Part shown: one piece after another, positions 11,006-57,095 of the stretch | How the letters are laid out: each line of letters opens with the position of its first letter | Numbering within the stretch: position 1 is the stretch's first letter | Source of the DNA: Bacteroidaceae bacterium | Lineage (GTDB): Bacteria; Bacteroidota; Bacteroidia; Bacteroidales; Bacteroidaceae | Assembly: GCA_017535725.1 (NCBI GenBank) | Contig: JAFXTO010000004.1 | Coordinates: 1 to 64,000, forward strand | Length of the DNA: 64,000 nt | Direction of reading: 5' to 3' | The notes under the pieces: generated by a model | The model's database searches: none | What the model saw: the letters and a program-made list of their open reading frames with translations, nothing else | Told to the model about the DNA's origin: nothing | Position numbers and translations under genes: made by a program

Positions 11006-11080
11006 CGGGATGTAGCTCAGTCCGGTTAGAGTACGCGTCTGGGGGGCGTGGGGTCGCTAGTTCGAATCTAGTCATCCCGA
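11006..11080 (+). tRNA. tRNA-Pro (anticodon GGG)
   Basis: Perfect 7-bp acceptor stem (CGGGATG with CATCCCG), T-loop TTCGAAT with a 5-bp stem, and anticodon loop CTGGGGG giving GGG, which reads CCC/CCU. CCA is not encoded. The gene is the phage attachment site. Its last 14 bases are shared with attR, and the copy at the left end keeps the tRNA whole after integration. Confidence 0.93.
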
Positions 11081-11086
11081 CAACTT
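11067..11086. repeat. attL core
   Basis: TCTAGTCATCCCGACAACTT, covering the last 14 nt of tRNA-Pro and 6 nt beyond, recurs exactly at 57041-57060. Similarity continues with small differences through the adjoining hairpin. Confidence 0.9.
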
Positions 11087-11091
11087 AAAGG

Positions 11092-11120
11092 TAGCCTGCT
11101 GAATTTCAGCAGGCTATCGC
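11092..11120 (+). terminator. Terminator hairpin after tRNA-Pro (left copy)
   Basis: 11-bp stem TAGCCTGCTGA/TCAGCAGGCTA with a 3-nt loop. A near copy sits beyond attR, so this hairpin was probably the original tRNA terminator that the phage mimics. Confidence 0.65.
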
Positions 11121-18639: not shown

Positions 18640-18658
18640 AACAGAATAGGTTTTGAGG

Positions 18659-18705
18659 CAAAGTACGGGATAAAATCTGAATTATGCAAGGAAAAAAGGG
18701 AAAAA
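18659..18705 (-). promoter_or_regulatory. Repeated phage promoter/operator element, copy 1
   Basis: On the minus strand it reads TTTTTCCC...CCTTGCATAATTC...CCCGTACTTTG: a TTG box, 21 nt and TACTTTG. Nearly the same 47 bp occurs at 37269-37316 and 38232-38279, each time upstream of a minus-strand phage gene. Confidence 0.6.
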
Positions 18706-20064: not shown

Positions 20065-21825
20065 TCAAAAATAGTTCCACGTGCTCCCGCCGTCATTGGT
20101 CTTCTGTATGCCGTTCGCGGCCGTGATACGGATTCCAAAGTCACCGCATACAATGGAGATGCCTCCGTTGAACACCCTGAGGGAGGCATTTATTGCGGAA
20201 AGATCAATCACGTTCTTCAACACCTCGAGTGATGCGGAGATGACGTTGTTGTCATACCCCTCTATATGCGCAGCATACCCGTCCATGCGGATTTTGTTAT
20301 CCCCATAGCTCACATTCACCGCTCCGCCCGAGGCCGTCAGAGGCCCTGTCGACGTGATTCCTCCCACGGCAGTGATGGCAGGCGCCGTCGTTGTAGATGT
20401 CGCATAAATGCCAGTTCCTCCGGCCGCGTTGAGGACATAGATGTTTGCGTTCCTTGCCAGTTCCGTCTGGCTCGTGCTTATATACGTATAGGAGTTCGTA
20501 TTGAGCCCGAAGTGCAGCTTTCCCGTCTTCGAGTCGAATTTGTTGTTGGCACCTATCTCCAAGTCCCCGAAAAACCCGCTGACCGCCTCGACGACCCCTT
20601 TCACCTCCGCATCCTTCATCTGAACCTTGCCCGTGAGGAAGTTGATGAGGAAGTTCGGTTCGAACACTCCATTTGCGCCTGACGCCTGTACGGGTGCCCC
20701 ATAGCTACCTCCGTCCTCGTCCACTGTCTCGTAGCCAGTGATATTGCCGCTGCCGTCCAGGATCCTGTTGCGCCCGTATTGGCTGTACATGAATTCGTCC
20801 CAGAACACCGATTTGCCTACGGTGCCGCCCTTGATGATGGCCAGATCCGTGAACAGAGGTTCCATGTTGTTGATGCGTGTCCATTGTGTGAGGTTCTGGT
20901 CAGGGCGCGTCCCCACCGTTGCCGTATTCGTCCCCGTCTCCGGCGCCTTAACGATGTAGAAATTACTGTCATGCTCGTTCCATACATACTGTGCCTGTGA
21001 GGTAGTGGCAGTATAGGTCTCCGTATTCGTCCATATTCCTGCAGGAATGGGTACGGGCCCGCTGTAGCCACGTGCTCCGTCGAAGACCTTCGGCAGCATG
21101 AATTCCACCGTCCCGAACTTCGATGTCGTCCATACGGCGCGGAGTCCCGTGCACTGTGTCAACACCGACAATGACGACCCGGAAACCTGCAGGGAGTATG
21201 TCATGGCAGCGCTGGAGAACGTTTGCAGGAAGCTTGTACTTGTTCCCGTCAGGTAGATGGTCAGGCTTCCCGTGTCCGTCAGCACCGCTTCCGTCCCGCT
21301 GGCAGACCTGACCATCAGGCTGGCCACCATGGCCGCATGGGTGGGGAAATCTCCCCTCGGCGTCCCGTCGGACTTGGCACTGAGAGTCGTCTGCTCCACA
21401 CCACCTACAGTCCACCTGCAGCGCAGTGTCCCAGGCACCTTCTCCACGGGTATTTCCTTCTTAGCGGTGTAGTCTGTCAGGAAAGCAGCCTGTGTTGTCG
21501 GCAGACTATCATAGACAAAAACCTCGATGGCAGCATCCGAGGCGTTCACCGTGATATCCAGTCCCTCAATACTTCTCACCTTCGAGCTCACGTATATCGC
21601 CCTTCTTCTCGTGCCATTGGCGGCACGTACAAAGATCACAGCGTAGAACAAAGCCTCCGCCTCCTGCTCCCCCGTCCGCTTGTAGAAACGGTAGTTACTC
21701 GAGAACGTGCTGCTGCTCGCCCCTGCCGGCACTTCTGCCCTCTCTGCGTCCGTACGTATGACGTAGGTCACTCCGTCCTTGGGTCTCACCATCAGCGAGA
21801 ACCGTGCCCCTATCTTCTTGCTCAT
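20065..21825 (-). CDS. Phage tail fibre / receptor-binding structural protein
   Basis: 586 aa starting at an ATG that overlaps the reverse transcriptase stop (ATGA), so the two are translationally coupled. The N-terminal part has Ig-like beta repeats. The C-terminal third is Gly/Ala/Thr-rich and repetitive (AITAVGGITSTGPLTASGG), like a fibre shaft, ending NDGGSTWNYF. Position and coupling make it the first candidate for a diversified target. However, its C-terminus has no similarity to the Asn-rich template upstream of the reverse transcriptase. Confidence 0.7.
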   Translation of the reverse strand: MSKKIGARFSLMVRPKDGVTYVIRTDAERAEVPAGASSSTFSSNYRFYKRTGEQEAEALFYAVIFVRAANGTRRRAIYVSSKVRSIEGLDITVNASDAAIEVFVYDSLPTTQAAFLTDYTAKKEIPVEKVPGTLRCRWTVGGVEQTTLSAKSDGTPRGDFPTHAAMVASLMVRSASGTEAVLTDTGSLTIYLTGTSTSFLQTFSSAAMTYSLQVSGSSLSVLTQCTGLRAVWTTSKFGTVEFMLPKVFDGARGYSGPVPIPAGIWTNTETYTATTSQAQYVWNEHDSNFYIVKAPETGTNTATVGTRPDQNLTQWTRINNMEPLFTDLAIIKGGTVGKSVFWDEFMYSQYGRNRILDGSGNITGYETVDEDGGSYGAPVQASGANGVFEPNFLINFLTGKVQMKDAEVKGVVEAVSGFFGDLEIGANNKFDSKTGKLHFGLNTNSYTYISTSQTELARNANIYVLNAAGGTGIYATSTTTAPAITAVGGITSTGPLTASGGAVNVSYGDNKIRMDGYAAHIEGYDNNVISASLEVLKNVIDLSAINASLRVFNGGISIVCGDFGIRITAANGIQKTNDGGSTWNYF

Positions 21826-23246
21826 AGGTCGCCCTCCTCAATATATCTAAGCTGGTTCGTGGAGCCCTCGAAGATGTATCCGCACTCATTGACGATGCGT
21901 GCGTCCTCGATGGGCAGGAACTCCTTGTTCGGGAAGATTTTCTCCAGCTCGCGGATCCAGCGGATGATGCCATGGTAGTTGCCATGGAACTCGTAGGCCA
22001 GCGTACGTCCCGTCGGTTCTCCGGTTTCCTTGTTCAGCTCGGGTGTACCTATGAGGCACTTTATCCAGTTGTCCTCGCCTTTGCTCTGGCGAATCTCATA
22101 CTTGTAGAGCGTCAGCGTCTGCAGTTGCGGTACGTTCTGCATGGGTATGTTCTTGGCATCCATCTCTCGGTCGATTCGGATCTTTGCCGTCAGTTGTGTC
22201 AGTTTCATATCTCTTTCGATTTGTTGCATGATACGGAAGGTGTCAGCGTGCTTCAGCAGTCCGAAGTAGCTGCCCCATGAGCGGTTGTTGTCAGTACGTC
22301 TGGCACTCTGCAGTGTAGAGCGGCGCACCAGTGTCAGTCCTTTATTGTGTTCGGTTGCCGTACGTCCCGGGAATCGTTTCAGGACATATCCGCAGATATC
22401 CACGCCCCGTTCGTCGATGGCCACGATGCGTGCCGTCTGCCTCTTGGCACGTATTCCCTGCTCATACCACCAGAACTGCCTCACGCGCCACAGCGCCTGG
22501 TGTGCCTCGTCCTTGGTGGGCGTAGCGATAAATGTATTGTCGGCATAGCGGACGGCCCACTTGAAGTTCTCACGCAGCCAGCAGTCGAAGCTGAGCATGA
22601 CAATCTGGTGGATGTACGGGCTGGTGGGCGTACCGATAGGCAGGTGTTCGTCGACGAAGCCCACGTCCTCGCCGAAGTCTGTCAGCCACCGCCACCACCT
22701 GTAGTCGTGCCATTCAGTAGGGAACAGGCCCGCCGCTGATGCTATGGTCACAGTGGCCATCACCTTGTCCCGCATCACCTTCATGCCCCTTCGGTATGCC
22801 TTCACGCTGACACGTTGGTAGCACTGACGCTGATCCACGTCCACGAGCCAGGTCAAGTCTCTCTGGTCATAGAACAGCCTCTTGGCCTCCTTCAGCAGCG
22901 AGAATTCCCGTTTCCGTGCCGTGATGCCATGCTGCGGCAGGCAGTTCCTTGCCACTCCCGGATTCACCAGTTCAAATACCGGTTTCAGCAGTACTAGCCA
23001 TAGATGTTCAATGATAAGAGCCGAAAGCAGAGGCGCATCGATGTGCCGCACCTTCTTATCCTTGTTGACGATGGTCTTCTTGTAGAATCTCAGCATCTCC
23101 GTATAGGTGCCGTCCTGCACCGCCTCGAAGATACGCTGTATGTTTCCGTCAAGGTCTGACTTGAACGCGAGTACAGGCTTCGTGCCCTGGCGTCCTTCGA
23201 ACGTTTCCAGGACAGCCTCTCGGATATGTTGTTCTGTGATGTACAT
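21822..23246 (-). CDS. DGR-like reverse transcriptase with YADN active site
   Basis: 474 aa. Motif A is LVDVDQRQCYQ (Asp136/138), motif B GTPTSP (205-210), motif C YADN (234-237). The downstream RSWGSYFGLLKHADTFR strongly resembles the thumb-region signature of diversity-generating retroelement enzymes. Two oddities: motif C ends in Asn rather than the second Asp, and motif B ends SP rather than the SQ usual in DGRs. A C-terminal extension (about 345-474) of unknown fold follows. No intron maturase or endonuclease domain is present, so a group II intron is unlikely. The upstream 410 bp hold an Asn-rich template and hairpins. The tail fibre gene is coupled downstream. Confidence 0.82.
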   Translation of the reverse strand: MYITEQHIREAVLETFEGRQGTKPVLAFKSDLDGNIQRIFEAVQDGTYTEMLRFYKKTIVNKDKKVRHIDAPLLSALIIEHLWLVLLKPVFELVNPGVARNCLPQHGITARKREFSLLKEAKRLFYDQRDLTWLVDVDQRQCYQRVSVKAYRRGMKVMRDKVMATVTIASAAGLFPTEWHDYRWWRWLTDFGEDVGFVDEHLPIGTPTSPYIHQIVMLSFDCWLRENFKWAVRYADNTFIATPTKDEAHQALWRVRQFWWYEQGIRAKRQTARIVAIDERGVDICGYVLKRFPGRTATEHNKGLTLVRRSTLQSARRTDNNRSWGSYFGLLKHADTFRIMQQIERDMKLTQLTAKIRIDREMDAKNIPMQNVPQLQTLTLYKYEIRQSKGEDNWIKCLIGTPELNKETGEPTGRTLAYEFHGNYHGIIRWIRELEKIFPNKEFLPIEDARIVNECGYIFEGSTNQLRYIEEGDL

Positions 23247-23657
23247 ATCTAAGGCTTGGGCATGGGGCGCCTACCTGTCACGGTCATGAGACCGCCGCCA
23301 CCCCTTTGGTCTTTTATCTTTGCCACTTCCGGGCAGGATGCAGCCATGGTACTGAAATATCAAGCTTGGGCCGACCCGCCATAATTCGCATTCGTGTTGG
23401 ACGCGGCATTGTTCGCATTCCAATTGCGCGGCGAGCTGTTAGTACTGTTCGCATTACCACGAAAGCGCAGGCCTTATGACACCAGACATTGCATAAGCCG
23501 AAAGTGTCATACGCCGCCTCATGGCTGCTCATTAGTCCTTATAGCTTGACAACATCAAGAACCTATTGACAGATGGAGGCCAATCCCGCATCTGTGGCTG
23601 GCCTCCTTGCATTCAAATATCTAAACATTCATCTTTAAGCTACTTTAGATATCTTGG
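23247..23657 (-). ncRNA. Leader of the reverse transcriptase with hairpins and template repeat
   Basis: This 411-bp gene-free stretch between the TIR-like gene and the reverse transcriptase is highly structured on the minus strand. It has GGAGGCCA/TGGCCTCC (about 23574-23608), CTTGA/TCAAG (23545-23559) and a perfect 8-bp stem TATGACAC/GTGTCATA (23475-23511), followed directly by the Asn-rich template (23360-23473). It is presumably the RNA copied by the enzyme. A 72-codon open frame at 23314-23532 is not thought to be a gene. Confidence 0.6.
23360..23473 (-). repeat. Putative DGR template repeat (TR), Asn-codon rich
   Basis: Read on the minus strand, one frame ends at TGA (23360-23362) and contains about ten AAC/AAT codons in some 37: GLRFRGNANSTNSSPRNWNA followed by NNAASNTNANYGGSAQA. 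This is the usual make-up of a DGR template, where adenines are the mutable positions. No ATG opens the frame and a TAA lies just upstream, so it is not itself a gene. No matching variable repeat was found at the end of any phage gene in the window. Confidence 0.65.
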
Positions 23658-24809
23658 TCATCTACGAATCTGACGTAGTCTATGCTTGTGCCAAAGGGTT
23701 ATCACCAATTGATAATAGTTTGGTAAGAACAAATATAAATATATTAAGAAAATTAATACCATTATAAACACTGATAGATTAAATAAACTACCATAAAAAA
23801 CTTCACAGAATCTATAAGGGTCGAAAGAAAGGTTAAACAATAATGTGGCAGTAACAATCATATACGGAAATCCGATTAGAATGCCCCATCCAATTCTTAA
23901 TCTTCTCCTAATTGAATCTTGTCGGAAAATCCGTTTCTTGTAGCCTCTTGCAATGAGATTGTATCCAGTAATGTTATTATCAAAAGTTGATGTCTTGTAT
24001 CCGGTGCCCTCACTTTTCAAGAAGAATCTCTTCTTAAGAATACTATCCTTGATATCCGGGAAACCTATAATTCCATGCAACTCGCCTCTGACATTGAGAT
24101 ATCTCTTTGTATTCGTTACAATATAGGTGGTTTTGTCCTTCATGTTAGCAGATTGTTCAATCTCCCAGACGCAACTTGGTCTGTCATTGACTAAGATAAA
24201 AATAGATTCTGCCTTCTGCATCAGTTCCAGTACATCCCCTTGCCATGATTTGTCATCTACATATACTCGAATTGCGCCGTCTGGGCTGTCTAGCTCTTTC
24301 GTCATTCCGACGGCGCACGCCCTAATTCGTGTGTTCAGCAATCTTATGAATTGGTATTCGGAGAACTGACTCCTGCGAAAGAAATGCCTCTTTGAGTAAT
24401 CATCATCAGCAAATCCTCTCAGATAAAGAGCAAAACGGGGATGTTGTTCGAGAAATGCCTCTTTAGTGAATGTGGAGACATTGCCTATGTGCCGATTTGT
24501 GGCTTTGCTAACAGCGAAATACCAAAAGAGGACGATAGTGTTGGCAATAACCGTTTTCAGAAGTTCGACTTTCAGGTTGCACACAAATTCTATTTCCCGA
24601 TATGAGAGGTAAGCGGAAATCAGCAAGTACACGATGTAACAGATGATAGCGAAGAACAGGAGTATTCTTCTTCGCCTCTTGGCTTTCTCTCTTAGATATA
24701 TTGCAGTCTGTGTATTGCTTGCCAACTTTATTTCTCTCTTGATGGGCAAATCAATCAGAATGGTCTGCAAGCATGCTACGATGGAGAAGAAGATGATGAT
24801 GTCTAACAT
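23658..24809 (-). CDS. Membrane protein with TIR-like central domain (cargo gene)
   Basis: 383 aa with about five membrane helices: residues 1-20, 48-68, 80-102, then near 310-330 and 345-370. The central soluble part (about 130-290) has RFALYLRGFADDDYSKRHFF, AIRVYVDDKSWQGDVLEL, MQKAESIFILVNDRPSCVWE and TTYIVTNTK. That pattern of alternating strands with an LRGF start and a xWEIE motif resembles TIR/SEFIR-type folds. The gene is visibly AT-richer than its neighbours, a sign of recent acquisition. It follows the restriction-modification gene by 27 bp and is probably co-transcribed, suggesting an anti-phage role. TIR-like is an inference from the motif layout. Confidence 0.6.
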   Translation of the reverse strand: MLDIIIFFSIVACLQTILIDLPIKREIKLASNTQTAIYLREKAKRRRRILLFFAIICYIVYLLISAYLSYREIEFVCNLKVELLKTVIANTIVLFWYFAVSKATNRHIGNVSTFTKEAFLEQHPRFALYLRGFADDDYSKRHFFRRSQFSEYQFIRLLNTRIRACAVGMTKELDSPDGAIRVYVDDKSWQGDVLELMQKAESIFILVNDRPSCVWEIEQSANMKDKTTYIVTNTKRYLNVRGELHGIIGFPDIKDSILKKRFFLKSEGTGYKTSTFDNNITGYNLIARGYKKRIFRQDSIRRRLRIGWGILIGFPYMIVTATLLFNLSFDPYRFCEVFYGSLFNLSVFIMVLIFLIYLYLFLPNYYQLVITLWHKHRLRQIRR

Positions 24810-24836
24810 TGTGGAGAAAATTATGTGGATGAAGTC

Positions 24837-25589
24837 TTAGTGTTTGAGGAATCCGTAGGCATAGACTTTTGGCTGGATGGCGGCGGCGAGTGCTCTCATG
24901 CGCTGTCTCAGGGTGGTGATGAGGGTGGTGTAGGTGGGGTCTGTGCTCTCGGTGTTCATCTGCTGGCGGCCGCTGGGAAGTGTCTTGGTGCCTTGGAAGT
25001 GGAGACGTATGTCGTAGAAGGAGGCGTTGGGGTGAGTGGCAGCAATGGGCTGGGCGTGATAGTAGCGCCATAGCTCGCGGCCAGCATTCAAGACGGCGGT
25101 GGCTTCGGGTGAGAACGTTAGAGGCTGGGGTGTGATGGTTTCAATTTCGGCCTCGGTGAATAAGTCAGTTTCTATGGAAGTCGCCGCTTCTTGTGGCAAA
25201 CGCCCCGCGATGTAGTCGCTCATGAAGTGACTCTCGAACTTCTCTTGTGCGTTGACCTCCTTCTCGGTGAAGGGTATCCAGTGGTTCACACCATGGGCAG
25301 AGCTGATGCGGTTCTGACCGTGGAAGAGAGTATATATGAGACAATTGTTGATGAAATCCTGGTCGGAACGCCATTCTGCTGTTGGTACCAAGTATTGGTC
25401 CCGGTCATTCTGCCAAGTGGCTTCAATGGCTTGGCGTATGGCCAGATAAACGCACATAACACCAACATTGCCTTTTGTGATTTCTGCATAGAAGTGATTA
25501 TGCAGGTCATTGGGTGATAGCTGGCTGGTGACGTAAATGCCAAGATTGTTCTGCACATTTGTACCGTTCATCCTCAGATAACCTATCAC
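24837..25589 (-). pseudogene. C-terminal fragment of interrupted Type IIG-like restriction-modification protein
   Basis: 250 codons from an internal ATG. The same frame continues upstream without a break to the amber codon at 25740-25742, so this is the specificity/C-terminal part of the gene beginning at 27350. In between, the frame encodes HTDEHEDFTEQGVDVYEADG and onward. Whether this fragment is made separately is unknown. Confidence 0.75.
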
Positions 25590-25739
25590 TTCACCCTCCT
25601 TGTCGTAGTAACGGCGTAACCATTCTATGATGTTGGTGTCATTCAGGTAAGAACTGATGAGTTTGGTTCCGGCAAAGGTGCCGTCAGCTTCATAAACATC
25701 AACCCCTTGCTCCGTAAAGTCCTCGTGCTCATCTGTATG

Positions 25740-27350
25740 CTAGATAAAGAAGCCGATGGGGAACTGTCCTTTGACGTTATCGAAGGTATTGGCTGGAACC
25801 ATGAAAAATCGACCGGGCTTCGCCCGGAATTGCCTTCGGAACTCACGGAAGTTGGGTGCTTGCACAATTTTCAACTTTGAAAATTGTGCAAGCACCGCTG
25901 TATGGAGTTCATCATAGACCCGCATGATGAATTGCGCGAACAATTCACGACAAGCCAGGCCTATGAGAGGCTTATATTTCTTATAAGTATAGGTGTCAAA
26001 GGAAACGCCGGACTTGTTTTTCCCCGTCCCGCTCCGTTGCTTGCTGTCTCCCGCCTCTGCATAGGGCGGGTTGATATACACCACCAGCTTTCTGCGCTTC
26101 TCGGGGTCACGGATGATGTCTTGGAGGGAGTCGGGCAGTTTGGACTTGATGACGTTCCCCTCCTTGTCTGTGCTGTCGAGCAGCGGATCGTTGAGGAAGT
26201 CGAACTGGAAGACATGGCTGTCGAGGAGGTTGGCACCACCCTTGATGCGCTGGCGCATGGCCTGCACGTCGGCACGGTCGAGGGTGGAGGCGTAGATGTG
26301 GTATTTGTTGGTGAGTCCGGCCAGGAGGTTGCCCGTTCCGGCACAGCAGTCCCAGACGTAGTACTCGTCCTGCCAGTTTTCGCCCAGCTCGGCGGCCAGG
26401 TACTGCTGCGAAAGTTCCACCCATCGGGCAGGGGTGAAGAAGCTGCCCTTGCGCTCGCGCACGTCCTGCGACACCAGCAGGTCGCGGCGGTTCACGATGT
26501 AGTCCCAGTACTCGCGGCGCGGCGGGCGGGCATAGCGGTTCCAGAATTGGGTGTGTGCCTGCTGATGGTCAGAGAACTGTGCCTTGGTGAAGTCCTCCAG
26601 TCCGAGATCATTGATGCGGCGGTCGAGCAGGTAGTGGTCGGTTTGCAGCAGCACAAAGAGCTTCTCGCCCAGTGTGTTGTTCTCCTTGGAGAGGATGTCT
26701 GCCAGATAGAAGTCTGCATCGATGATGCCAGCCTGTTTGGCCAGATCCCAGTTGATGTTGATGGTGGGTTTCACGGCTTCGAGCCACTTCAGGTAGATGT
26801 GCGTGAAGTTGTTCTTATTGATGCGTATGTGGCGAACACCAGTTCGGCGCAGTCGGAAGTTGTGGAGGATGAAATGGGTCAGTTCCTTGATATCACGTTC
26901 GTAGTCGTAGATTTCGAGGCCGGAATGCAAGGTGTCCGTGAGCAAATCCATGAGCTGCAGGAACTCCTTGGTCTGGTGGTCACTGGGAGTGACGTTCCAA
27001 TTGAAGTCGTTCTGTCGTAAGACATCAAGGATGGAGGAATAGGGCAAAAAAGCTATCTTGGCGGCATCGAATGCTCCGAGGAAGGCGGGCGGCAGCATAC
27101 GGTCATGTGGGCGTTCCTTGCCGAGTGTCAGAATGAGCTGGATGAACGATTCGTAGATGTCGTGTCCTGTGCCCTTCTTAGCCTCCGCCCATAGCAGTGG
27201 CTCTGGCTCATTCAGCCCGAGCGGGTCGGCGGGCACGCAGACGCAGAAATCTACACGCCCGATAATCTGCGTGCAGTCGAAGTCCGGAAACAGGTCTGCC
27301 GCCACTTTGTTCTTCAATTCCTCTTCGAGGATGTTACCGTAATATGCCAT
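25740..27350 (-). CDS. Type IIG-like restriction-methyltransferase, N-terminal part, ends at an in-frame TAG
   Basis: 536 residues. The N-terminal nuclease-like part has RVDFCV and EPLLWAEAKKG, a D...ExK pattern of PD-(D/E)xK enzymes. The N6-adenine methyltransferase core has the SAM-binding motif WDCCAGTGNLLAGL and the catalytic motif INPPYAEA. The protein stops at TAG just after PIGFFI, a point where homologous methyltransferases continue (IGF-x-I-W is a common run). TGG to TAG or CAG to TAG would both explain it. ATG at 27350 is chosen because a TACCTTTG box lies 27 bp upstream. The C-terminal half is intact in the same frame (24837-25589). Confidence 0.8.
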   Translation of the reverse strand: MAYYGNILEEELKNKVAADLFPDFDCTQIIGRVDFCVCVPADPLGLNEPEPLLWAEAKKGTGHDIYESFIQLILTLGKERPHDRMLPPAFLGAFDAAKIAFLPYSSILDVLRQNDFNWNVTPSDHQTKEFLQLMDLLTDTLHSGLEIYDYERDIKELTHFILHNFRLRRTGVRHIRINKNNFTHIYLKWLEAVKPTININWDLAKQAGIIDADFYLADILSKENNTLGEKLFVLLQTDHYLLDRRINDLGLEDFTKAQFSDHQQAHTQFWNRYARPPRREYWDYIVNRRDLLVSQDVRERKGSFFTPARWVELSQQYLAAELGENWQDEYYVWDCCAGTGNLLAGLTNKYHIYASTLDRADVQAMRQRIKGGANLLDSHVFQFDFLNDPLLDSTDKEGNVIKSKLPDSLQDIIRDPEKRRKLVVYINPPYAEAGDSKQRSGTGKNKSGVSFDTYTYKKYKPLIGLACRELFAQFIMRVYDELHTAVLAQFSKLKIVQAPNFREFRRQFRAKPGRFFMVPANTFDNVKGQFPIGFFI

Positions 27351-27376
27351 GCCTGCATGTTTTGATATTTTGGGGG

Positions 27377-27384
27377 CAAAGGTA
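27377..27384 (-). promoter_or_regulatory. Promoter -7 box of the restriction-modification cargo
   Basis: TACCTTTG on the minus strand. A TTTG box lies 23 nt upstream, slightly far. It gives the cargo block its own expression. Confidence 0.5.
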
Positions 27385-27479
27385 GTATTTTGTATTGAGT
27401 TTTGCCCCAAAATTCCATGAAAAATGTAATCTTGTGCGAAGAATGGATGCATTTTCGCGCGCGAGGCGACCGGCGTGGC

Positions 27480-27701
27480 TCACGGCTCCCCCAGGAACCG
27501 CACGATGGTGCGGACCTGCCGCGGCGTATAGACTTTCTGCCCGATATGCCAGCCCTGCCGACGCAGCGCAAGGGAAAGGGTGCGGCAGGCCAGCAGCTCG
27601 CGGTTGAAGCAGCGGCGGGCCCAGGAGGGGGAGCAGAAGGGGTAGTACATGACGGCTAGTTCGGAGGTGCCGTAGGCCCGGTGGCGAAAGGGTGTTTCCA
27701 T
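27480..27701 (-). CDS. DUF4248-family small protein
   Basis: 73 aa. HRAYGTSELAVMYYPFCSPS, WARRCFNRELLAC, GWHIGQKVYTPRQVRTIVRF and LGEP match the pattern I associate with Bacteroides DUF4248. The C-terminal TPRQVRxIVxxLGEP looks like a small DNA-binding helix pair. It is transcribed away from the HU-like gene and has its own promoter. Function unknown. Confidence 0.7.
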   Translation of the reverse strand: METPFRHRAYGTSELAVMYYPFCSPSWARRCFNRELLACRTLSLALRRQGWHIGQKVYTPRQVRTIVRFLGEP

Positions 27702-27743
27702 GATGACAGAGGTTGGTGCGTCTTCGGTTACTTTTTCACGACA

Positions 27744-27775
27744 CAAAAGTAGTCATAATCTATCAGAGCGCCAAA
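27744..27775 (-). promoter_or_regulatory. DUF4248 gene promoter
   Basis: TTTG (27772-27775), 20 nt, TACTTTTG (27744-27751) on the minus strand. Confidence 0.7.
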
Positions 27776-27857
27776 CAGATAGGGAGTTTTTTCGCCCGCA
27801 GCGCACCGGATTGCGCCGTTTTGCACGACTGCGTGCGCCTCGGTGCGGGAAATGGCG

Positions 27858-27865
27858 TACCTTTG
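27858..27865 (+). promoter_or_regulatory. HU-like gene promoter -7 box
   Basis: TACCTTTG on the plus strand; no good -33 box. It leaves an unusually long leader of about 230 nt before the ATG at 28101. Confidence 0.5.
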
Positions 27866-27946
27866 CACCGGCAAACGACAGGACGTAAGCCCGGACTCCG
27901 GCGCGCAGAAGCCCAGAGGCACGGACACCGCTCCACACTCCCGTCG

Positions 27947-28006
27947 GCGCGGAAGTATAGAAGAAACGGCGTGGAAGTATAGAATGAAGCGCGTGGAAGT
28001 ACTACT
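27947..28006 (+). repeat. Three 22-bp tandem repeats in the HU leader
   Basis: GCGCGGAAGTATAGAA, GCGTGGAAGTATAGAA and GCGTGGAAGTACTACT start at 27947, 27969 and 27991, exactly 22 bp apart (two helical turns). They lie in the transcribed leader. They could be protein-binding sites, perhaps for the HU-like product itself. Confidence 0.6.
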
Positions 28007-28100
28007 CCCGCCGACACGGAAGCCCGGAGAGACGTCCGGCGAAGCCTGCCCCAGCCACGAAATCAACCCTATTATTAACCATCAAAAACACAAGAAAGCT

Positions 28101-28580
28101 ATGTTAGACTATTCCGTAGCAATGCTCAAGAACCCCTTGCACGAGAACGACCCCGCCAAGGCCTACGCCTACCTGCAGTCGCGCGGCCTGCTCGAAATCG
28201 AGGAGGTTGCCGAGCACATGGTGCAGCACGGCTGCGCCTACGATAAGGCCGACATCGTGGCCATCATCACCAAGCTCGTCAGTTGTACCCGAGAGCTGCT
28301 CACTGACTGCTACAGCGTGCGTCTGGGCGACCTTGGCCGCTTCTTCCTCAGTGCCAAGAGCCGAGGTGCCGTCAGCCTGAAGAAGTTCACCGAGGAGAAC
28401 ATCGAGGAAATCAACATCAACTTCGTTCCCTCCAAGGAGTTCGAGAACCTCCGCTCCAGGGTCAGCCTCCACAAGGTGCCCAGCCGCGCCGCCGTGGCCG
28501 CCACGCTGGCCGCACAACTCGAGGGCCTCACCCAGGCCGACTGGACGTCGGAGGACGAAGAGGAGGACGACGAGCCTTAA
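28101..28580 (+). CDS. HU/IHF-like DNA-binding protein
   Basis: 159 aa, Bacteroidetes-type HU-like domain: helical N-terminal part (KAYAYLQSRGLLEIEEVAEH, DIVAIITKLVSCTRELL) and beta-arm part (VRLGDLGRFFLSAKSRGAVS, NINFVPSKEFENLR), then an acidic tail (TSEDEEEDDEP). Such proteins bend or coat DNA. It is one of the few plus-strand genes within the phage and has its own promoter and a strong terminator. The start at 28101 is chosen because the MLDYSVAM start fits the family; the upstream frame is only leader. Confidence 0.8.
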   Translation: MLDYSVAMLKNPLHENDPAKAYAYLQSRGLLEIEEVAEHMVQHGCAYDKADIVAIITKLVSCTRELLTDCYSVRLGDLGRFFLSAKSRGAVSLKKFTEENIEEININFVPSKEFENLRSRVSLHKVPSRAAVAATLAAQLEGLTQADWTSEDEEEDDEP

Positions 28581-28642
28581 ACCTTAAGTCCCGGCACCGC
28601 GCCAGGCACCGCGCCTGCGCTGCCATGCCATGAATGACGAGT

Positions 28643-28690
28643 CCCGCCCCGCACGACGAATGAGCGTGCGGGGCGGGCGTTTGTTTTCAG
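28643..28690 (+). terminator. Terminator after the HU-like gene
   Basis: Perfect 13-bp GC-rich stem (28643-28655 with 28665-28677) followed by CGTTTGTTTTC. Confidence 0.85.
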
Positions 28691-28851
28691 GCATCCTTCC
28701 CTTCGTGCCCGGCAGCGGGCGGCAGGCGGCACTGCTCGAAGGACAGGGCTACACACAGGGCTGCAATGGTGCCGACGAGCCACGAGGTGCCGCAGCCGTC
28801 CGGCGCATCGAGGACGAAGTATCCGCTTTCGACGCTGTTTACTACTGCCAT
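28687..28851 (-). CDS. 54-aa membrane peptide made from a duplicated gene start
   Basis: It starts MAVVNSVESGYFVLDAPDG, almost identical to the start of the 388-aa structural protein at 33809. It then diverges into a hydrophobic helix (TSWLVGTIAALCVALSF) and a short tail. Its ATG overlaps the preceding gene by 10 nt exactly as at the parent locus. It is either a new small membrane protein or a leftover of the 155-bp duplication. Confidence 0.45.
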   Translation of the reverse strand: MAVVNSVESGYFVLDAPDGCGTSWLVGTIAALCVALSFEQCRLPPAAGHEGKDA

Positions 28852-28962
28852 TGCCAGATATCGTATTTGAGGGTTACGCTTGGGGCGTGCAGGCGCAGGT
28901 CATAGCCGATGCCGAGCTCTGCGCGCTTAAGACGCAGGCCGACCACGAGTGCCGCCTGCTCG
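28808..28962. repeat. 155-bp duplicated segment, copy A
   Basis: About 97% identical to 33766-33920. It covers the last 40 codons of one gene and the first 15 of the next. Confidence 0.85.
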
Positions 28963-29144
28963 TTGCCGTTGTCGCCCGTCACTAGTAGGTTGCCCTCGTC
29001 GAGGAAGAGGGCGGGATAAAGGAGGCGGTGTGCCATGAGAGTGGCGGCATCGTCCATGGAGCAGGCGAAATGGGGTTCCGCCTCGCTGTGTCGGATGAGG
29101 GTGTGCTCGGTGGCCAGCTGTGTGAAGTATTCCTTGACGGTCAT
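28842..29144 (-). CDS. Chimeric phage protein (100 aa)
   Basis: The first 60 residues (MTVKEYFTQLATEHTLIRHS...) are unique here. The last 40 (EQAALVVGLRLKRAELGIGY then DLRLHAPSV...WQWQ) are identical to the end of the membrane-anchored protein at 33800. ATG overlaps the upstream stop by 4 nt. The gene seems to have been created by the 155-bp duplication replacing its original C-terminus. Function unknown. Confidence 0.65.
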   Translation of the reverse strand: MTVKEYFTQLATEHTLIRHSEAEPHFACSMDDAATLMAHRLLYPALFLDEGNLLVTGDNGNEQAALVVGLRLKRAELGIGYDLRLHAPSVTLKYDIWQWQ

Positions 29145-32642: not shown

Positions 32643-33809
32643 TTAATTGAAACTATCGTCAAAGGTATAGTCGAAGATGCCGTCCACCAGTTCCGGGTTC
32701 ACGCTGGCACCACGGCTGACCACTTCCTGATGGCGGTGGCTGGGGCGCAGGGTGACATAGGCCGTCTGGAAGGTGGTGTGCGGTCGCTGGTCCTTCAGCT
32801 CGAGGTCCGTCACCGTCACGCGGTCGAAGCAGCTGCCTCCGACTCCATAGGTCAGGTAAACCTCGGGGCTGGTGGTGATGTCGCGTATGCTGTTCCGCCG
32901 TTCGTCGTTGACGCTGCCTGCGCACACGCGCTGGGTGGTCACCAGCTGCTGCGCCACCTTCTCATACTGGTCGTCCATGTAGGCATATTCTCCGTCCATG
33001 GTCGTGTCGGCTGTCTCTGTGCCCGTGAATGCCTCTGTCTCCAGCATGCCGAAGCAGTTGGTGAAGGCCACCACTCGCAGCAAGCGCTTCGCCCGTCGGT
33101 CTATGCGGTAGCGCAGGCGGTCGGCGATGGTGTTGCCGTTGATGAGTTCGAAGTCCACCTGCACGATGCTGTCGGCATCCACTTCTGCTGCCGTGCCCAG
33201 TGCCTCGAGACGGTAGTGGAGCACGGCAGCCTGTGAGGGCGTCTGCGTGGCCACACCTTCAATGGTGGGCGTCACCAGCTTCTGGTGCATGGCTCCTTCA
33301 GCGTCGAGGTAGCGCACACGGATCTGCACCGAGAGTCCGGGCGTGAGCATGAAGCTGGCCAGCAGTGGCTGCTGGGGCACGACGTCGCGCTGGGTGTAGC
33401 GGCTGAGCCAGATGGCCGTGGCTCCCGGGCGCGTGTTGGTGCGCTGGCTGGAGTAGTAGGCGTAGGAGGTATGCACGGGAGGGACTACCGTCTGTCCGTC
33501 CCCGGCATAGAGCGTGGCCGTCCACTGTGCACGGGAGAGCGTGGCTATCCACACGCCGGAACCCGTCAGCAGGTTCTGCGTGATGGCGGTAGGGCACGGA
33601 CTGGTGTAGGGCTGCAGCAGGTCTGCCAGGCCGCGCAGTGTCACGCATCCGTCGCCGTCGGGCATGTAGGCCTCCTGATAGGAAGCTGTCGTGCCGTTCA
33701 GTGGCGTGATGGCAACGGCCACCGTGCGCCCCTCCGAGGCCACTGCCCATCGCACGTCCGGTGTGTCGAGGACGAAGTACCCGCTTTCCACGCTGTTCAC
33801 TACTGCCAT
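32643..33809 (-). CDS. Phage structural protein (beta-rich, 388 aa)
   Basis: Almost entirely beta-strand with conserved aromatic residues (YTSPCPTAITQNLLTGSGVW, IQVDFELINGNTIADRLRYR-type strands). It lies in the head/tail block and its ATG overlaps the upstream gene by 10 nt. Probably a tail or capsid-attached protein. Its first 15 codons are part of the 155-bp duplication. Confidence 0.6.
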   Translation of the reverse strand: MAVVNSVESGYFVLDTPDVRWAVASEGRTVAVAITPLNGTTASYQEAYMPDGDGCVTLRGLADLLQPYTSPCPTAITQNLLTGSGVWIATLSRAQWTATLYAGDGQTVVPPVHTSYAYYSSQRTNTRPGATAIWLSRYTQRDVVPQQPLLASFMLTPGLSVQIRVRYLDAEGAMHQKLVTPTIEGVATQTPSQAAVLHYRLEALGTAAEVDADSIVQVDFELINGNTIADRLRYRIDRRAKRLLRVVAFTNCFGMLETEAFTGTETADTTMDGEYAYMDDQYEKVAQQLVTTQRVCAGSVNDERRNSIRDITTSPEVYLTYGVGGSCFDRVTVTDLELKDQRPHTTFQTAYVTLRPSHRHQEVVSRGASVNPELVDGIFDYTFDDSFN

Positions 33810-33920
33810 TGCCAGATATCGTATTTGAGGGTTACGCTGGGGGCGTGCAGGCGCAGGTCATAGCCGATGCCGAGCTCTGCGCGCTTAAGACGCAGGCCGA
33901 CCACGAGTGCCGCCTGCTCG
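33766..33920. repeat. 155-bp duplicated segment, copy B (likely parent)
   Basis: Same length as 28808-28962 with about five differences. Both junction genes are full length here, which suggests this is the original. Confidence 0.85.
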
Positions 33921-34396
33921 CTGCCCAGCTGGGTGCCCAGCGAGAGGGCCAGGCGGGGCGGTGATAGTTGCCCTGTGCCGCCGGACGCAGGCCGGGTATC
34001 CGCTGAAGGTGGGATGTATGTGATGCGCGGCTGCATCAGCGCCAGGTCATAGCTGACCAAACGTCCGTGCAGCGCGTTCTCCGTCACCGTGTCCGAGAGG
34101 TAGACCGTGGCCACGTCCTGCAGGTGCACCGTGTCGGCATAGGTGCGCACGGCGTAGAACGACGCCAGCAGGGCGGCCGTATCCACTTCTGCTGGTACCA
34201 TGCGCACCACTTCATTCACCATGCCCGGCTGGCTCAGGAAGAGCGTGTCGTGCACCCATACCGTGTCCATCCGCACCTCCACGGCGGGCAGGGCGGCAGG
34301 CGGCAGCAGGTCGCCGTCCTCCCTCCACGCCAGCAGCACCACCAGCACAAGGGCGATGGCACCCAGCACCACGTTCAGGATCCTTTCATTCTTCAT
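33800..34396 (-). CDS. Membrane-anchored phage protein (spanin-like or DUF6808-like)
   Basis: 198 aa from the ATG at 34396 (the GTG two codons earlier is less likely). One N-terminal membrane helix (ILNVVLGAIALVLVVLLAWR), then a periplasmic part with repeated short strands (VRMDTVWVHDTLFLSQ; TYADTVHLQDVATVYLSDTV). It overlaps the holin-like gene upstream. Topology and position suggest an inner-membrane spanin or similar lysis protein. That role is inference. Confidence 0.6.
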   Translation of the reverse strand: MKNERILNVVLGAIALVLVVLLAWREDGDLLPPAALPAVEVRMDTVWVHDTLFLSQPGMVNEVVRMVPAEVDTAALLASFYAVRTYADTVHLQDVATVYLSDTVTENALHGRLVSYDLALMQPRITYIPPSADTRPASGGTGQLSPPRLALSLGTQLGSEQAALVVGLRLKRAELGIGYDLRLHAPSVTLKYDIWQWQ

Positions 34397-37231: not shown

Positions 37232-37268
37232 ACTATATCTATATTTAGTCCTTGAATCTCTTGTGAGA

Positions 37269-37316
37269 CAAAGTACGGGATATATTCTGAAATGTGCAAA
37301 GAAAAGGGGGGAAAAA
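37269..37316 (-). promoter_or_regulatory. Repeated phage promoter/operator element, copy 2
   Basis: Same CAAAGTACGGGATA...TGCAA element (plus-strand reading) as at 18659 and 38232. It ends 38 bp before the ATG at 37231. Confidence 0.6.
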
Positions 37317-38089: not shown

Positions 38090-38231
38090 AAGAAGGCCTC
38101 CTTTCGTAAGCATAAAGTGATTTTCCTTTATTATTCTTTCTCAGGGGTCAGCGCATCCATTATCAAGAATAAGCGGCAGTTTGGTGGTTTGCAGCTTTCG
38201 AATGCGCCTCGCCATGAGCTTAATCATGCTG

Positions 38232-38279
38232 CAAAGTACGGGATAATATCTGAGTTATGCAAGGAAAAAGGGGAAAAAA
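38232..38279 (-). promoter_or_regulatory. Repeated phage promoter/operator element, copy 3
   Basis: Third copy of the 47-bp element, also placed back-to-back with the hicAB-2 promoter, so both units could answer to one regulator. Confidence 0.6.
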
Positions 38280-40693: not shown

Positions 40694-40723
40694 GATGTCT
40701 GTCTTTATTTAGGGGGTTAGACT

Positions 40724-40936
40724 TTAGTATTCGTAAATAGTCATGATGTTGATCTGGATGCCGTCTGCATAGGCCAGTTCGTGGGCTTCGCGTGCGGCCT
40801 CGTGGTGTGAATCGGCGCATACCTCGTAGGTGAACTGTACTCCGTCGAAGTCCTGGATTTCTACGGTGAATTGGTTGCTGAGGAAGCAACGGCGGCTGCG
40901 GGTGCGGAAGTTGGAGGTCATGTAAGGAGTTGTCAT
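40724..40936 (-). CDS. Small phage protein (70 aa)
   Basis: From ATG 40936 (MTTPYMTSNF). Basic start followed by FTVEIQDFDGVQFTYEVCAD and EAAREAHELAYADGIQIN. An inverted, decayed copy of this gene and its leader lies at 41150-41385. Function unknown. Confidence 0.6.
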   Translation of the reverse strand: MTTPYMTSNFRTRSRRCFLSNQFTVEIQDFDGVQFTYEVCADSHHEAAREAHELAYADGIQINIMTIYEY

Positions 40937-41467
40937 TGTGATGAAGTTTTTTAGGGGTGAATGAATAGATTTTTTACGTTGCTTTACCAAGGTAAGCCAG
41001 GCGCATCGGTGCAAGGACGCAGAGAATTATTTTCACCCTTCAGGGCGCAAGCAGAATTCTGACACACAGAAGGTGTCCGTCAGAATTGTTTGAAAATAAT
41101 TGTTGAAGCCAAGTCCTCCGGACATCCTTGCAGCGGAAGACGGCGAATTACCTTTGCAGCGGAAAAAGTCGTTTTTCATTCACCCCCAAGAAACTCACTA
41201 CGACAACTCCGTGACCTCCTGCTGCGCCCCAGCAGCCCTTGCTCCCTGCAACCGACGTGGGAACCCCGGACAGGAGCACAGCCACCTGCGAGCCATGCGC
41301 TGCACCTCGTGCCCGCACGCTGCCCTCAGAACTCCAATGCCGACGGCATCCCGACACCGTGACCATCTACGAATACAAAAAAAGAACCCCGCGGCAGACG
41401 TCACGGAGTTCCATTACAGAAGCAGAGGTGGTGCAATAAGAGGAGGTGAGTGACAACCGAGATGTCG
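40937..41467. other. 531-bp intergenic region built as an inverted duplication with two outward promoters
   Basis: The two sides are related in inverted orientation. Minus side: TTACCTTGG box then ATTCATTCACCCCTAA before the 70-aa gene. Plus side: TTACCTTTGC (about 41149-41158) then TTCATTCACCCCCAAG. The centre holds AATTATTTTCA / TGAAAATAATT (about 41033 and 41091). Confidence 0.6.
41189..41385 (+). pseudogene. Decayed inverted paralog of the 70-aa gene
   Basis: The plus strand keeps ACGACAACTCC...GTGACCTCC, GCCGACGGCATCC and ATCTACGAATAC, matching the start, middle and end of the 70-aa gene. But the ATG has become ACG and the frame is broken by small indels. Confidence 0.6.
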
Positions 41468-57040: not shown

Positions 57041-57060
57041 TCTAGTCATCCCGACAACTT
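57041..57060. repeat. attR core
   Basis: Exact copy of 11067-11086, including the last 14 nt of tRNA-Pro. Confidence 0.9.
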
Positions 57061-57066
57061 AAAAGG

Positions 57067-57095
57067 TAGCCTGCTGATTCAGCAGGCTATTTTCA
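57067..57095 (+). terminator. Hairpin beyond attR (original tRNA terminator)
   Basis: TAGCCTGCTG/CAGCAGGCTA stem followed by TTTTCA. Near copy of the hairpin at 11092. Confidence 0.6.

Follow-up and report, generated by a model that had tools for sequence, protein, structure and literature searches.

A 64,000-nucleotide stretch of a Bacteroidaceae genome (contig JAFXTO010000004.1, positions 1 to 64,000; hereafter the window) holds a 46-kb prophage in which a reverse transcriptase (RT) of the kind found in diversity-generating retroelements (DGRs) lies beside an Asn-rich, template-like sequence, and we wondered where the target of this system is. The original prediction allowed for a target in trans, a lost target or another function of the system. 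Our analysis makes it very probable that the element is a DGR remnant: the RT, the template repeat (TR) and the 3' spacer are left, and the target with its variable repeat (VR) and an RNA leader 5' of the TR have been replaced. Of the parts of a complete DGR, the window has an RT beside a non-coding TR, and has neither a VR in a target gene nor the 5' leader.

The window RT matches the RVT_1 profile with 41.2 bits (cut-off 29.6), and its best PHROG is phrog_1423 (75 bits), where Brt of phage BPP-1 also has its best match (421 bits). Its GSYFGLLKHAD stretch is kept within the RT family as SWASYFGLMxHAD, and motif inspection of the window RT did not find the DGR hallmark GxxxSQ. The Asn-rich frame, GLRFRGNANSTNSSPRNWNANNAASNTNANYGGSAQA (10 Asn), has stop codons on both sides and no start codon, so that it does not constitute a separate gene; these features and homology to the TRs of relatives rule out an ordinary exon. 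Aligned with one relative (L017), the window repeat shares 92 of 104 positions with the TR and 81 of 104 with the VR; for a second (L004), the identities are 84 of 107 and 76 of 107. As it is closer to the relatives' TRs than to their VRs, homology identifies the repeat as a TR, in agreement with the template-like sequence first noted upstream of the RT. The adjoining 3' spacer keeps the positions that are conserved across 10 close relatives, the window counted among them.

What a complete element of this kind looks like can be seen in 33 RT relatives (two from IMG/VR with a single-protein query, 13 genome contigs, 17 further IMG/VR entries and the phage crAssE-Sib), which together with the window make 34 RT loci. 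Among 50,697 phage records, crAssE-Sib was the sole match; in the bacterial family, RT matches were present in five of 301 genomes, of which three (L008–L010) carry SQ-type RTs, and the other two are those of L028 and of the window. Repeat pairs 5' of the RT were located by a script that leaves adenines free. VR, RNA leader, TR and RT lie in cis and in one order in 28 of the 33 relatives, with 140–357 bp from VR to TR and the RT next, so the proposed comparison with relatives did reveal targets beside the RT, and the reading of the window as a DGR-type RT plus template was supported through relatives with the complete system. The VR-bearing gene is 1057–1069 aa long in L004, L005 and L017, and the printed frame ends 9–48 nt past the VR in 23 of the 28 loci (another frame is printed for L033, L034, L035, L038 and L045). 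Across these loci, 397 of 753 TR adenines and 22 of 2,315 non-A positions are changed in the VR. L046, with repeats 3' of the RT, five non-A mismatches and no leader, was left out of these totals; including it, the 29 loci give 403/775 and 27/2,393. The 28 loci are not independent (L034 and L035 have identical RTs; L041/L043 and L025/L028/L032 are close). Because the differences between VR and TR are nearly confined to adenines, the substitution pattern marks this RT family as a DGR family. Judging from the TR–VR pattern and the BPP-1 mechanism, in an intact system an RNA of leader, TR and spacer would be copied by the RT with errors at template adenines, and the mutated cDNA would overwrite the 3'-terminal VR of the gene just upstream.

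To what extent a recipient for such cDNA exists around the window RT was assessed by scanning both strands of the 64-kb window with template adenines free. No VR was found; apart from the repeat itself, the best place mismatched the 116-nt repeat at 51% of its non-A positions, and 60-nt pieces did no better than 41%. This rules out a VR hidden in a divergent window gene and bears out the earlier observation that no gene in the window ends with a template-related sequence. The window's own genome is a metagenome-type draft of 72 contigs and 76% completeness. In it, neither blastn nor degenerate patterns recovered a VR, the TR itself being the sole true match (blastn also gave two chance matches of 14–17 bases), so the template search with mismatches at adenines that had been suggested as support for a trans target returned only the TR. 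Target homologues, with two target proteins of relatives as queries, and the 544-aa gene that relatives carry were likewise not found in this 76% complete genome. A 45-nt VR pattern with up to three mismatches was absent from 138 other genomes of the genus; its one hit among 139 was the window's own genome, at the TR itself. A target that lies in the quarter of the host genome missing from the draft, or on a separate replicon, and that is served in trans by the RT and TR, would fit the intact and constrained RT, the incomplete genome and the report that some DGRs have remote targets, which a DGR survey would miss (PMC8144416). It is nevertheless very improbable, given that the VR is in cis in all 28 complete relatives, that no VR was recovered from the genomes just described and that the TR leader is gone.

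Comparison with the relatives places the change immediately next to the template. Homology to L004 and L005 restarts at about 23474–23478, which is the 5' edge of the TR. The window at about 28.96–32.0 kb corresponds to L005 1–3082 and window 21772–23474 to L005 9765–11464, and the 6.7 kb of L005 between these two syntenic blocks has no counterpart in the window; L017 likewise matches the window on both flanks. Its equivalent stretch holds the remainder of a 163-aa gene, a 544-aa gene that matches only PHROGs without known function, a 364-aa gene with no PHROG match and a 1057-aa target with VR, the N-terminal part of which matches a tail-protein PHROG (44.5 bits). The window has about 5.5 kb of other DNA instead. 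At its far edge, the gene at 28842–29144 is related to L005 over its first 62 codons and then runs into a 171-bp copy of 33755–33925. Recombination in the window prophage would thus have replaced the DNA from inside this gene to the 5' edge of the TR. Measured against the relatives, what would have gone missing is the remainder of that gene, two other genes, the VR-bearing target and the RNA leader. Alternatively, two phage strains could have been merged in the contig, one contributing the RT side and the other the adjoining DNA, with the real prophage keeping its target. The draft, metagenome-type assembly described above and the 171-bp near-repeat at one edge of the replaced segment would suit such an artefact; however, with 8 mismatches in 171 bases between the repeat copies and scraps of several genes making up that edge, the join does not resemble a simple fusion at an exact repeat. 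A separate contig with the target or a VR was not recovered from the 76% complete genome, and comparable losses beside the RT are present on two other contigs (L018 and L036). We consider an artefact improbable.

These two losses support a beheading of the window element, too. Compared with its near twin L038 (98% identical upstream, 95% downstream), L036 lacks about 1.45 kb that held part of the target, the VR and the leader; its break is at the 5' edge of the TR, and the remaining upstream frame continues into the TR (L036:8797–9651), so that the template is now coding. In L018, foreign genes extend up to an RT that is truncated at its 5' end. In L027 (4215–4475), the VR is fused directly to the post-TR spacer and the template is absent, which looks like a VR × TR recombination that removed the template. 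L046 lacks the leader, and its repeat pair lies, unusually, 3' of the RT; the contig of L037 begins inside the TR, so that its 5' side cannot be judged. From these comparisons, the window element appears as one of several damaged elements in the family.

Does the window RT itself show decay? Its dN/dS against three relatives is 0.12–0.14. Counting codons on which the three other close RTs are in agreement, it has 15 nonsynonymous (N) and 24 synonymous (S) unique changes; in this four-sequence comparison, the VR-bearing L017 has 16.25 N and 30.75 S, and L018 11.6 N and 22.4 S. The RT of L005 is split in two frames and was excluded from the codon and deep-tree work; this frame (L005:10001–11414) is broken into two open reading frames (ORFs) despite a fresh-looking TR and VR, either by sequencing error or by very recent damage. 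The window RT is thus intact and constrained, with no clear sign of long-term decay, and because of this the loss was probably recent. As there is no cis recipient and the template RNA is incomplete, we predict that the element is inactive. Constraint despite a lost target might also be read as recruitment of the RT and TR to another job without a VR, for example defence, and the RT does match several defence RT models, best at 43 bits with a CRISPR-associated RT model. Such matches are weak and common to RTs in general, the RT remains in the DGR family clade, and an unmutated RT is equally expected soon after loss; of all readings, we regard this one as the most far-fetched. An assignment as a defence, retron or group II RT was rejected because the profile matches are weak, among them 38.3 bits with the group II maturase model TIGR04416 (cut-off 300) and 31.3 bits with the St85-type retron model NF038233 (cut-off 235), both below threshold.

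Several points weigh against the remnant reading. The junction stands on one contig of a draft genome, which could contain a chimeric join. The VR-bearing L004 has a lower nonsynonymous share than the window (3 N, 23 S), and slight relaxation could hide in a comparison of four sequences. Inactivity is a prediction, and the RT could still work if given another template RNA; the need for the leader, in turn, is suggested by its conservation. Even so, of the three answers originally offered, target loss is best supported, because the slot that holds VR and leader in 28 of 33 relatives is unrelated mosaic DNA in the window; a trans target was not found in the 76% complete genome, and another function has no positive support.

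Positions of the DGR remnant, the replaced segment and the prophage ends are collected in Table 1.

Table 1. Features of the window, in window coordinates
Feature	Positions	Strand	Basis
Attachment-like repeat at tRNA-Pro, one prophage end	11067..11117	.	direct repeat
Tyrosine-type phage integrase	11201..12388	+	
Gene 3' of the RT, overlapping the RT stop; homologous to the same-position gene of L004 (43%) and L018 (41%)	20065..21825	-	
DGR-type RT, 474 aa, GTPTSP and YADN motifs	21822..23246	-	intact ORF, profile match
TR-to-RT spacer, common to relatives (AAGACC..GGGTGGCGGC..GTGACAGGTA)	23250..23365	-	
TR, non-coding, 10 Asn codons	23366..23473 (about)	-	homology, stop-bounded frame
Replaced segment, mosaic DNA; in relatives, this slot holds two other genes, the VR-bearing target and the leader of the TR	23474..28958	.	
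61-bp scrap, 84% to L004 14867–14927 (beside hicAB-like genes)	23512..23572	-	
171-bp copy, 95%, of 33755–33925; scar at the far edge of the replaced segment	28797..28967	-	
Attachment-like repeat, opposite prophage end	57041..57090	.	direct repeat

The two attachment-like direct repeats are 94% identical over 52 columns and the former adjoins tRNA-Pro (11006–11081), which upholds the claim that both phage ends lie in the window. Within the replaced segment, the scar is followed by an HU-HIG gene on the opposite strand and then by a DUF4248 gene. Such a pair is found in the replaced region of both prophages, at window 27480–28580 and L018:4936–6117, in opposite orientation relative to the RT. 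A DNA-methyltransferase-like frame (24837–25589 and 25740–27452) is interrupted by an in-frame TAG, and its Pfam match of 15.9 bits is below the cut-off of 20.4. The segment also holds a 383-aa ORF with stretches that are hydrophobic by eye, which we take from inspection to be a putative membrane protein; an origin search in 201 genomes gave its own copy and one weak match. Outside the segment, a stretch of about 48–55 bp is repeated at 18651–18705, 37261–37315 and 38231–38278, near two gene pairs that, by eye, we presume to be hicA/hicB-like; these pairs may be movable cassettes. Finally, 40723–41380 has an imperfect inverted self-match (66% over 713 aligned columns).

The part of the RNA that the window has lost is structured in its relatives. 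The leader comprises about 70 nt directly 5' of the TR and is common to relatives. RNAalifold on 26 sequences predicted three helices in a row around the loop CATTGGGA, with 15 of 16 pairs changed on both sides. With one extra pair, this structure had 89.4% of cells pairing (62.8% in shuffles) and 105 double-change cells (32.7 in shuffles), whereas sliding it by 1–3 columns always gave lower values, at most 49.8% pairing and 40 double changes. A covariance model matched 28 of the 34 loci at 39–84 bits; it was built from 26 of these 28, and L019 and L035, which had been left out, were still recovered. The model did not find the leader in L018, L027, L036, L037, L046 or the window, whose best score with filters off was 12.5 bits at an unrelated place. 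It had no match in 19 loci with reference RTs, most with short flanks, and none in 251 genomes of the bacterial family, a search run with no positive control. At Rfam gathering thresholds, the leader was unmatched in five scanned relatives, three of them leader-bearing (L023, L024 and L032), and the window matched only tRNA. For BPP-1, reverse transcription has been described to stop at a motif in the 3' end of the avd mRNA upstream, and bRT-Avd to be recruited by the 3' spacer (PMC12875486). By analogy, the leader of this family may recruit reverse transcription or set its limit. No earlier report of it was found in the literature searched, which lay mostly outside subscription papers and supplements. 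Together, these data make the covarying leader a candidate new part of DGR RNA.

The enzymes of the family are also unusual. All 34 RTs carry GTPxSP in place of GxxxSQ, and in motif 5, canonically YxDD, 23 have YADN, among them the window, and 11 have YADD. In DGR RTs, both YxDD aspartates are reported to be 100% conserved, and SQ was proposed as the cause of mutagenesis (PMC3521204). On the RT tree, which has long branches that meet, YADN and YADD are separated by five changes by parsimony, at least two of them forced by starred branches. Adenine-specific change is present with either motif: the 19 YADN loci have 280 of 509 adenines and 13 of 1,591 other positions changed, and the nine YADD loci 117 of 244 and 9 of 724. 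Seven pairs of YADN phages, three of which share members, have TRs that differ at 4–26 non-A sites. In six pairs, the VR matches its own TR at every such site; in the seventh (L033–L041), it does so at 26/26 and 25/26 sites. Since each VR tracks its own TR at non-A sites, this implies TR-to-VR copying that would have been recent in each of these YADN phages. YADN is not unique to the family, as two outside rows labelled group II also carry it. No earlier report of a YADN DGR was found in the same literature, and the catalogue of PMC8144416 may already hold such RTs without comment.

How the family relates to other DGRs was assessed in a deep tree of 27 of its 34 RTs (L005, L030, L031, L032, L035, L037 and L043 left out), with reference RTs labelled from motif, annotation or the retrieving profile. 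The 27 RTs form one long-stemmed branch (100/99) and SQ-type rows another clade (98/94). DGR RTs have been described as one monophyletic clade (PMC8144416). In the best tree, the SQ rows are placed together with group II and other RTs, a grouping that lacks support (59/52). In approximately unbiased (AU) tests, neither a joint clade of family and SQ rows (p 0.42, with the two long outside rows L081 and L065 dropped) nor one of family with group II and other RTs (p 0.31) was rejected. The position before GxxxS in motif 4 is I or V in 27/27 family rows, I, V, L or F in 15/15 SQ-type rows, and Q in 17/17 group II, retron and other RTs. Because this hydrophobic residue is common to both groups, it speaks, as a sequence character, for common descent with SQ-type DGRs and counts against a separate lineage. 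It thus seems unlikely, albeit worth considering, that the family is a second, separately arisen adenine-mutating RT lineage, without SQ, mostly with Asn for the second catalytic Asp and with its own 5' leader instead of Avd bounding or recruiting reverse transcription. As to Avd, the RT strand between target and RT showed no gene of at least 100 aa in L004 and L005 and none of at least 150 aa in L017, and no gene is annotated there in L012; no Avd profile search was made.

Among described systems, the DGR of crAssE-Sib (OR575929; PMC11054128) is alike in its RT, 42% identical to the window RT over 99% of the query, in the GxxxSP motif, RT clade and RNA leader (73.8 bits) and in its annotated order of VR, IMH, TR, IMH*, RT. 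It differs in having YADD where the window has YADN and in being a complete element, in a 151-kb crAss-like phage. GxxxSP was reported there as unexpected, the finder myDGR missed this DGR, and related phages have fragmented or deleted RT genes; the parts of PMC11054128 covered mention neither the leader nor YADN. PMC12386605 cites this SP finding and describes SQ in zeta crAss-like phages. BPP-1 resembles the family in the TR 5' of the RT, a tail gene that carries the VR at its 3' end, adenine mutagenesis and the aliphatic residue in place of the Q of QGxxxSP. In contrast, its RT has SQ and YMDD and bbp7 (avd of the literature) lies between target and TR, whereas the family has SP, mostly YADN, no bbp7-like gene seen, a structured leader 5' of the TR and a long branch between the RT clades. 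Group II intron and retron RTs share SP in motif 4 and give weak profile matches to the window RT, but have Q in 14/14 rows where the family has I or V.

Overall, the window illustrates that a DGR can be lost when all the DNA 5' of its template is replaced, and finding a DGR-type RT together with a TR does not prove that the DGR is alive. As the family escapes a motif-based finder, myDGR having missed crAssE-Sib (PMC11054128), DGRs of gut and rumen phages may be undercounted. The remnant represents an ordinary fate. Of greater interest is the family to which it belongs, with two departures from textbook RT motifs, of which SP is already in print for crAssE-Sib. Because an SP, mostly YADN, family still shows fresh TR-to-VR copying, SQ would not be needed and the second Asp can be Asn. 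With a hydrophobic residue shared with SQ-type DGRs where other RTs have Q, the question of which residues cause adenine errors becomes directly testable.

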